Positions 8,216 through 23,242 of a stretch of 27,104 bases of DNA are shown here, in pieces (position 1 is the first letter of the stretch; each line of letters starts with the position of its first letter). Source of the stretch: a virus; IMG/VR virus record IMGVR_UViG_3300020578_000359, positions 1 through 27,104 of that record. The stretch is one strand, 5' to 3'. The position numbers and the translations under genes are program-made. The notes under the pieces were generated by a model. The model made no database searches. It saw only the letters and a list, made by a program, of their open reading frames with translations, and was not told the origin of the DNA.

Positions 8216-8218
8216 AGT

Positions 8219-8287
8219 GCTTCTATTAGGTATTGAGCCTAAAACTACAAATGTAAAATTTGTCGTTATACTTTTAACTATAGAAGC
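8219..8287 (-). tRNA. tRNA-like cloverleaf with UUA anticodon (putative ochre suppressor)
   Basis: On the minus strand 69 nt fold as a full cloverleaf with only Watson-Crick stems: acceptor GCTTCTA/TAGAAGC, T8 A9, D stem GTTA/TAAC with loop AAAGTA, G26, anticodon stem ACAAA/TTTGT with loop TTTTACA, variable AGTT, T stem TTAGG/CCTAA with loop CTCAATA, and discriminator A. T33, A14, A21, T55, C56 and A58 are as expected. The loop reads anticodon TTA, which would decode UAA. Odd features are a six-base D loop without GG, C at 37, C instead of T at 54, and no encoded CCA. It starts eight bases after the stop of 8296..8748. It may be a working suppressor tRNA, a decayed tRNA or a tRNA mimic. Confidence 0.6.
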
Positions 8288-14344: not shown

Positions 14345-14668
14345 TTATTTTTTTGTTTTTATAGGTTTGTTTTTTATACTTTTGACAATAGTTTCATAAT
14401 CATAAACATGTAAATTTTTAACTAACGCGCTTCTTTCAACGCTAGTTAATCCTCCCCATATTCCGTATTCTATATTGTTTTCAATAGCATAAAATAAACA
14501 ATTTTTTTGCACAGGGCATTCATTGCAAATTTGTTTTGTTTTTGCGTGCTTTTTTCTAGATAAAGCCGACTGCCTTTCTGTTTCTGAAAAGAAATTTGAT
14601 ATATCCATTCCTTTGCAGGCTGCTCTTTCTCTCCATAATTCTTTTTCTATTTTGAATTTATTAGCCAT
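14345..14668 (-). CDS. whiB: WhiB-family iron-sulfur transcription regulator (107 aa)
   Basis: Contains the four cluster cysteines C18, C48, C51 and C57 in the WhiB spacing (RAACKG, then CNECPVQKNC) and the GIWGG turn at 69 to 73 followed by the basic C-terminus. WhiB proteins are restricted to Actinobacteria and their phages. They bind a 4Fe-4S cluster and act with the primary sigma factor. The mycobacteriophage TM4 WhiB is known to down-regulate host whiB2. The ATG at 14668 follows the preceding TAA after one base. An in-frame TTG at 14686 would add six residues. This is the main evidence for an actinobacterial host. Confidence 0.93.
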   Translation of the reverse strand: MANKFKIEKELWRERAACKGMDISNFFSETERQSALSRKKHAKTKQICNECPVQKNCLFYAIENNIEYGIWGGLTSVERSALVKNLHVYDYETIVKSIKNKPIKTKK

Positions 14669-21263: not shown

Positions 21264-23003
21264 TCAGAGATTGTCTAGCGTAAAATCAAAATTGCCATCA
21301 ACTTGTTTTTTGGCCGGATAAGTTGGGGCAAATTTTCCAGCATTATTATTATACAGGGATACTGTGCCAAAATCTTCTAAATCATCATATTTTTCTGAAT
21401 CAATATCAAAATTTAATATTTCTAAATCTATTTCATTATCTATCATAATATTTGAAGCAGCAGCAAATACTGAGCCGGCTAATGCGTCAGCCATATCTTT
21501 AGAACCATTATTTGGGTGATCAATTCTATTGTTAGAAAACAATCTCAATTTTAACAATTCATTTTCAACCAAATGATCCTCCCAATACCCGCGTAATCTA
21601 GTATCATATATTGCTGTCATTAAAGTATCATAATCTGTTTTTTTCACGCTATGAAAATCTGCATTTACTCCTAATGATCTAAGACTTTGAATCATTTCAA
21701 CAGATTGCCATCGATCAAAAGTAACTAAACCAACATCAAATCTTCGGCACAAATCAATAATCATTTGTCTAACAGATGCAAAATTAATTTCTTCACCGGG
21801 GTCGGCTTGCCAGGAATATATTAAATCAACATTTATCACTGGTAATTTCTCAATACCCATAGATGTTTTAATTTCTGTTATGCCGGAACAATGCGTCATA
21901 CATAAAGCCGATCTATCTCTTTTTAATCCTAGATCAACATGAATAAATCTTTTATGGCCATCTGAATTATTAAACCACGGATAAAAGCGCCCTTCTTCGT
22001 CTAAAGGATTGTCTGCATAATTAAAAGCTTTTCTAACTAAATTTTCATCTCTGAAATAAGCATCTTCCATATTTGGAGGATCGCATTCAAATCTTGCTTT
22101 TGCTTCAATTGGGTTTCTAACATATTCTGATTCTAATTGTTCTCTTTTAATTGTGGGATTAACTTCCCAAGTAGCAGCTTTAATTGTCCAAGTCTTTGGT
22201 TCTTTTTTTTCTCTTGAATTGTAATATCTTTGCTGAATAAAGTCTCCTTTATATCTAGGGAATGACAAAAGAATAACTTTGCCAACTTCAGGGAAACGAG
22301 ACATCACGGATAATTTACTCATATTATAAATTGCAGATGCAGAACCTTTTGCTCTAGTATCTCCTTTCAATTCAGAATCGGTTTTAAATGCAGCAATTTC
22401 GTCTAAAACAATTGTTAATACTTCGTAACCTTCCCAACCTTCACTTTCTGAGTGACCAGAGAATAATCTTACCGGGCGAGAAAAGAAAAATATTTCCGAC
22501 ACTCTTGGCTCAAAACCAACGCCATTAAAAAATGGAGAACCTAATAATAAATTTTTTAATGGTTCAAAAAATACTCTTTGAGCTTGCTGCGCATTTACAG
22601 CCAGATTTAATAAATCTATATAGACACCGTGAGCTTTCCCATAATAACCCAAAGGATCTCTCAAACAATGTAGTAAATATGACGCATAAGCAATAGATAT
22701 TCTGCTACAATGGTCTTTACCACTACCCTTACCGAGCATACAAATGACTTCATTATCTGTATAATTATTGTAATATTGAATTCCTTTTTCTTCACCCATC
22801 AATTTTATTAAAGTAGGCTTCCGAAAGATTTGAGTACTATGTTTAACAATTTCTTTTTGAATATCAGAAAGGTCTGGCAGTCCAAGATATTTTTTATCTT
22901 TGACAAAAACTTCAATAGAAACTGGTTCTTCTACAAGTTCATCTTGTTTCAAAAGTCTATCAAAATCTTCAAATTCAAGATTAACGCCAAGATAATCAGA
23001 CAT
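21264..23003 (-). CDS. terL: Terminase large subunit (579 aa)
   Basis: DNA-packaging motor and headful/cos nuclease. Walker A is GKGSGKD at 91 to 97 after a Q-motif-like IQKEIVKH. Walker B with catalytic Glu is LTIVLDE (196 to 202). The C-terminal RNase H-like nuclease has acidic residues in HVDLGL (Asp357), VTFDRWQ (Asp430) and SKDMADALAG (Asp503, Asp506). Length is in the normal range and all motifs are present. The ATG shares its A with the TAA of the repeat-encoded frame (TAATG), and terS lies just upstream. Unusually, it is followed by a glycosyltransferase and not by a portal gene. Confidence 0.95.
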   Translation of the reverse strand: MSDYLGVNLEFEDFDRLLKQDELVEEPVSIEVFVKDKKYLGLPDLSDIQKEIVKHSTQIFRKPTLIKLMGEEKGIQYYNNYTDNEVICMLGKGSGKDHCSRISIAYASYLLHCLRDPLGYYGKAHGVYIDLLNLAVNAQQAQRVFFEPLKNLLLGSPFFNGVGFEPRVSEIFFFSRPVRLFSGHSESEGWEGYEVLTIVLDEIAAFKTDSELKGDTRAKGSASAIYNMSKLSVMSRFPEVGKVILLSFPRYKGDFIQQRYYNSREKKEPKTWTIKAATWEVNPTIKREQLESEYVRNPIEAKARFECDPPNMEDAYFRDENLVRKAFNYADNPLDEEGRFYPWFNNSDGHKRFIHVDLGLKRDRSALCMTHCSGITEIKTSMGIEKLPVINVDLIYSWQADPGEEINFASVRQMIIDLCRRFDVGLVTFDRWQSVEMIQSLRSLGVNADFHSVKKTDYDTLMTAIYDTRLRGYWEDHLVENELLKLRLFSNNRIDHPNNGSKDMADALAGSVFAAASNIMIDNEIDLEILNFDIDSEKYDDLEDFGTVSLYNNNAGKFAPTYPAKKQVDGNFDFTLDNL

Positions 23004-23242
23004 TATTGTAATTCCAGATTGCTACCAATAGGGGAAAACAGTAGTCTCAAATTCTGGTCAACGCCAGTAATGGCAGAAAACAGTGGTCTCAAATTCTGGC
23101 CAACGCAGGTAATGGCAGAAAACAGTGGTCTCAAATTCTGACCAACGCAGGTAATGGCAGAAAAGGGTGGTCTCAAATTCTGGCCATTTATTATAATGGC
23201 AAGAATACCTGGTCTCAAATTATGAGACATTTTCTTCCCCAT
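23003..23242 (-). CDS. Repeat-encoded frame between terS and terL (79 aa)
   Basis: The 42-bp tandem repeat stays open in this frame and yields 14-residue repeats of the form GQNLRPLFSAITCV. ATG at 23242 (or 23230) lies inside the end of terS, and the TAA overlaps the terL ATG as TAATG. Its translation could therefore carry ribosomes from terS to terL. No domain is recognisable. The repeat may exist for DNA reasons, with the frame a by-product. The in-frame length of 42 (14 codons) and the exact coupling argue for real translation. Confidence 0.45.
   Translation of the reverse strand: MGKKMSHNLRPGILAIIINGQNLRPPFSAITCVGQNLRPLFSAITCVGQNLRPLFSAITGVDQNLRLLFSPIGSNLELQ
23031..23228. repeat. 42-bp tandem repeat between terS and terL, candidate packaging (pac/cos) site
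   Basis: The core gtctcaaatt starts at 23044, 23086, 23128, 23170 and 23212, exactly 42 bases apart each time. The first three units are nearly identical; the fourth diverges in its second half and the fifth is partial. 42 bp is four helical turns, so the cores face the same side. The last core forms GTCTCA/TGAGAC around the terS stop. Position between terminase genes fits recognition by the small terminase. Not CRISPR-like, since there are no spacers. Confidence 0.75.

Follow-up and report, generated by a model that had tools for sequence, protein, structure and literature searches.

A short DNA element, repeated five times between the probable small terminase gene (terS) and the large terminase gene (terL) of this virus, is kept at the nucleic acid level at the terS-terL junction across a large group of actinobacteriophages. 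The element occurs again, in the same orientation, in noncoding DNA that corresponds in position to the left end of homologous phages, whose genomes carry long direct terminal repeats. From these comparisons we consider it rather likely that the units of the array are sites at which the small terminase subunit encoded by the phage, TerS, recognizes DNA. The array is probably an extra cluster and not the genome end, and would either regulate terS-terL or load TerS.

The window, a stretch of viral DNA of 27,104 bases, was scanned for the core GTCTCAAATT. Five cores were identified, at 23044, 23086, 23128, 23170 and 23212, with a constant step of 42 bp, and the core is absent from the rest of the window. 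The pattern GTCTCAAATTNTGR was likewise found five times, every copy inside the array, and the reversed-pattern control was found 0 times. TRF scored the array at 257, with a period of 42, 3.6 copies and 92% matches. The window count and TRF bear out the original prediction of five cores at 42-bp steps between probable terS and terL. The further description as an exact 42-bp tandem repeat holds for the spacing and the 10-bp core but not for whole copies, since the stretches compared with the first copy are 89, 87 and 67% identical. Read from terS to terL (minus strand), a unit consists of box A (CAKAATTTGAGAMC), a short spacer and box B (about GCCATTA). The array and the genes around it are as follows.

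21264..23003, minus strand: terL, 579 aa (PHROG 17415, E 2.4e-14; 41.6% identity to Coruscant TerL by tblastn)
23003..23242, minus strand: 79-aa ORF that spans the array and is probably a translational-coupling leader, not the target of constraint
23025..23228, minus strand: five-unit array of box A, spacer and box B
23043..23056, minus strand: box A of the terL-proximal unit, with one mismatch
23085..23098, minus strand: box A
23127..23140, minus strand: box A
23169..23182, minus strand: box A
23211..23224, minus strand: box A of the terS-proximal unit, which includes the terS stop codon
23220..23801, minus strand: probable terS, 193 aa with an N-terminal HTH (PHROG 9507; kept in relatives; hhalign to a Stanwilliamsviridae protein)

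The AlphaFold model of TerS was poor (pLDDT 58.7, pTM 0.34) and Foldseek with this model gave no match at E 0.001 or better. The identity of TerS therefore rests on its position, on PHROG 9507 and on profile homology (hhalign 98.1%, E 1.2e-13) to the Stanwilliamsviridae protein whose gene lies upstream of terL. The 79-aa ORF, which the original prediction did not mention, starts within the end of terS, and its stop overlaps the terL start codon. A WhiB-family gene is located at 14423-14635 (minus strand, E 6.6e-24) and a tRNA at 8218-8287 (minus strand). WhiB was present in 16/16 records searched, which points to actinobacterial hosts. A host search among genome contigs generated only two MAG contigs with doubtful labels.

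Two scans for TerL and TerS generated 142 sequences with both genes, the window among them, representing 80 distinct junctions. Separately, 2.9 million viral contigs were searched for two box-A cores 20-45 bases apart. All 62 matches (62/62) were at the terS-terL junction in the same orientation, all 62 carry the same TerS or TerL, and the array adjoins terS in every case. The array is therefore kept in related phages, where the original prediction proposed to look for it, and at one junction only. In most of the nearest relatives the terS-terL gap is 174 bases as compared with 216, exactly one unit fewer. Copy number and spacing were counted at the 72/80 junctions with a gap under 300. The core is present 0 times at 18 junctions, once at 2, twice at 17, three times at 14, four times at 18, five times at 2 and six times at 1. 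The 112 spacings were 42 (49), 45 (23), 35 (10), 36 (8), 40 (6), 34 (5), 43 (4), 41 (3), 46 (2), 30 (1) and 39 (1), and spacings of 34, 35 and 42 are mixed within some single arrays. The core is kept across junctions; the period and helical phase are not. The proposal that 42 bp, as four helical turns, presents every core on the same DNA face therefore fails, because the spacing ranges from 30 to 46 bp.

Among 79 junctions, 51 have box A, a further 22 have CATAAAG and 6 have neither, so that 73/79 have one form or the other as compared with 2.0% of shuffles. On the opposite strand of these junctions box A was found at 0 and CATAAAG at 8. In relatives whose TerS is 61-79% and TerL 75-78% identical, the element is present in a shorter form, CATAAAGG, and no more than once or twice; junctions with more distant TerL also hold one or two copies of CATAAAGG. 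Given these relatives, a multi-copy array is not needed. Transitional units, such as that of L043 (CATAATTTGAAACG...AGCTCCCATAAAGG), join box A and a CATAAAGG box. In some relatives a further gene (L066:458-1390) separates terS from terL; its product, about 310 aa long, contains an FSGGSDS motif and by eye looks like a PAPS reductase-type protein. The repeat boxes stay between this gene and terL. Gaps of about 0.9 kb also occur in L043, L057, L067, L068, L070, L071 and L120.

A box-A PWM was run over 14 long records. Besides the array itself, same-strand matches were found in noncoding DNA between convergent genes, 22.6-26 kb downstream of terL and just before a set of tandem genes on the opposite strand that was present in 8/8 records reaching far enough. 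In 5/8 of these the end-region score exceeded the best opposite-strand match of the same genome: G014 (28.1 bits), G007 (25.5), G011 (24.7), G013 (20.4) and G006 (12.7). The end-region scores of G001 (11.6), G012 (three degenerate sites, 9.4-14.0) and G015 (7.5) were below the best opposite-strand match. Further same-strand matches lie in coding DNA near terL (+1654, +2206 to +2235) and elsewhere. G017 has a variant array core, GAGTTGAGAA, and the matching variant in its end region. All 13 copies of CATAAAGG in G016 share one strand: one copy precedes terL, two come just after it, and ten are at +24.4 to +31.1 kb. In G022, the terL strand has two copies of CATAAAGG at the junction and further ones near +13.8, +23.0 and +23.9 kb, and the opposite strand has a single copy. 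The two-core pattern scan found the multi-copy array at terS-terL only; the end region has repeats of other kinds. Array and end-site variants co-varied modestly: in 8 genomes, with G012 (three degenerate sites) and G016 left out and shared ancestry not removed, 1404/40320 permutations reached the observed best-match score and 576 the mean score.

Several other features were noted in and around the end region. A perfect palindrome, TGTTCCACGTGGAACA, which we take to resemble a bacterial parS site, is present in the end region of G006, G007 and G013, and ParB-domain genes lie in the terminal repeats of Coruscant and Yaboi. Right after the end region, 8/8 genomes have two or three tandem opposite-strand genes of a small family of about 100 aa (LVKRGRDA...; examples are L211:3227-4089, L221:230-1212 and L225:14138-15054), with conserved hairpins (GGTGTTCA...TGAACACC) beside them. 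G016 has many interspersed intergenic CTAACGTTAG palindromes from about +24.8 to +31 kb past terL, a presumed terminal-repeat block. In G001 (108,840 bases) one gene appears to be split over both contig ends, so this record is probably a whole circularly mapped genome.

The end region was compared with the Stanwilliamsviridae (cluster BE: Coruscant, Yaboi, Mildred21), whose TerL is about 40% identical. These Streptomyces phages have homologous TerS and TerL and a collinear gene order: ribonucleotide reductase, portal and capsid, then replication genes, then TerS, TerL and WhiB. In terminase homology and collinearity the array phages resemble Stanwilliamsviridae-like long-terminal-repeat phages. 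In Coruscant, the start of an exact 12,244-bp terminal repeat falls within noncoding DNA where the genes downstream of terL converge with an opposite-strand block; the second site lies in the corresponding region. The available text of the source papers describes the Coruscant ends as called with PhageTerm (PMC7650747) and cluster BE1 ends as called by read-start pile-up (PMC5764925). The genes immediately flanking the end region had no detectable homology to their Coruscant counterparts, so the match is by layout. From this synteny we infer that the end region downstream of terL is probably the genome end in the array lineage. The original prediction had placed the DNA ends at the array and named ends mapping elsewhere as evidence against it; synteny with Coruscant puts the inferred end about 24 kb downstream.

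Just inside their left end, the Stanwilliamsviridae also have a motif that is repeated on a single strand. In the first 1 kb of six Boydwoodruffvirinae, 16 copies of TCGTAAAG were counted on one strand as compared with 0 on the other. MindFlayer and MulchMansion have two copies each in 1.5 kb, again confined to one strand, and a single CATAAAG is present near the end of Wakanda. TCGTAAAG is absent from the left ends of BillNye, SparkleGoddess and Weasels2. Coruscant differs from the array phages in its 57-base terS-terL gap, which has no array, and the Stanwilliamsviridae differ in their motif, TCGTAAAGG. Although TCGTAAAGG resembles CATAAAGG, neither the array nor the end-region sites were found by a PWM built on the left-end motif of the Streptomyces phages, so the kinship of the two motifs is unproven. 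We therefore claim a correspondence in position and regard the likeness in sequence as a lead.

TerS was examined as the candidate reader of the element by comparing 43 sequences with box-A junctions and 19 with CATAAAG junctions. These are 62 of 67 TerS rows, 5 belonging to neither class and 1 more having been dropped before. Within residues 1-178, eight residues strongly separate the two classes, and 5/8 of these (32, 39, 45, 46 and 51) are in the HTH (residues 28-55; hypergeometric p 0.0027). None lies in residues 67-178. Because the motif classes are also clades, this signal may reflect ancestry, and we regard it as support and not as proof. For SF6 TerS, the available part of PMC4737164 describes an isolated DNA-binding domain with no preference for pac repeats.

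One alternative is that the array codes for a small protein built of 14-aa repeats, which would make the DNA repeat a by-product. One frame stays open in 22/22 evenly spaced arrays as compared with 7.6 expected, although related arrays are not independent. However, in the clade of L098, L101, L103, L104 and L109 the first core reads EFEN and later cores QNLR, so that two frames are used for identical DNA. Furthermore, 4/35 arrays with three or more cores are closed in the ORF frame, the element recurs in noncoding DNA, and the array-encoded protein had no match in Pfam or PHROG. The core shows both CAG and CAT, which alters the amino acid, and by eye synonymous changes at other codons are hardly seen. 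Sequence comparison indicates that constraint acts on nucleic acid and not on the overlapping 79-aa ORF, which may be kept open for translational coupling of terL. The peptide-repeat idea was dropped on account of the two reading frames and the noncoding copies, and we consider it very improbable. Just as little probability is given to an RNA element in the terS-terL transcript that controls terL translation. The element is within the presumed mRNA, single CATAAAGG boxes are at a possible Shine-Dalgarno position, and the folding z was -2.07. This z-score is weak, the Rfam matches in the six stretches searched were tRNAs only, and the element also occurs in the end region with no same-strand gene after it. 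The RNA element was rejected on the folding and Rfam results.

The array might instead be the packaging initiation (pac or cos) site itself, with TerS binding the units and TerL cutting in or beside them. pac and cos sites are often in or near terS, and a repeated motif near terS, multi-copy and conserved, is what was found here, as in recognition sites of the cosB or SPP1 pac type. The available part of PMC6316719 places SPP1 pac over the start of terS. In the collinear map, however, about 24 kb separate the junction from the mapped left end of the homologous phages, the junctions of many relatives hold no more than one or two short boxes, and contig ends, used as a proxy for genome ends, gave no clear signal. 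Many relatives, and Coruscant, lack a multi-copy array, and end elements are present in G016, G022 and the Streptomyces phages; an essential start site at the array is therefore unlikely, and so is this reading as a whole. The packaging role originally proposed survives as a packaging-related one, given the conservation at one place, the end-region copy and the HTH difference, but not as a packaging site at this position. It is similarly unlikely that another phage protein reads the element, either a transcription or sigma factor or a replication initiator with origin sites and a titrating array. The end region has origin-like A-rich repeats, hairpins and a palindrome, and TTGAGA lies about 17 bases from a TA-rich box, a promoter-like spacing by eye. 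On the other hand, promoters spaced like the units, 34-46 bp apart, would overlap one another, conservation does not extend to the -10-like box, and GC skew singled out neither the array nor the end region. The HTH signal was found in TerS, and the TCGTAAAG cluster is absent from two satellites of BE phages. The accessible portion of PMC10690885 describes these satellites as lacking obvious replicases and encoding their own terminases.

Under recognition by TerS, which we favor, TerS would bind the array units. Units at the genome end would guide TerL in initiating packaging, similar to lambda cosB, where several TerS-bound R sites lie just inside the left end. Lambda has one compact cos site, whereas the array phages have the element at two places about 24 kb apart. 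The cluster of 2-6 units at terS-terL would not be a cut site. It may let TerS control the operon, as a roadblock or by repression of terL, or alternatively serve as a loading site for TerS. SPP1/SF6 pac is similar in having direct repeats near terS, and SPP1 TerS is reported to repress its own synthesis, according to a title cited in PMC6316719. It differs in that these are headful phages, cut inside pac at the terS start. In searches of open-access literature, no record seemed to describe such an array or motif.

A fuller model, to which we give slightly less than an even chance, is that long-terminal-repeat phages use one terminase recognition element twice. At the genome end it would start packaging; in the 2-6 copy terS-terL array, bound TerS would throttle terL or be loaded, until concatemers with free ends appear. 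To our knowledge, DNA recognition by TerS is poorly known in phages whose terminal repeats span 10-13 kb (T5, SPO1, cluster BE). The comparisons supply a defined motif with two predicted sites, HTH residues 32, 39, 45, 46 and 51 of TerS as its predicted reader, and natural variants of motif and reader, so the question of TerS recognition is directly testable. They also link an uncultured actinophage group to cultured Streptomyces phages. If the model is true, the supply of terminase would be coupled to packaging through a single element and a co-evolving TerS HTH that reads it.
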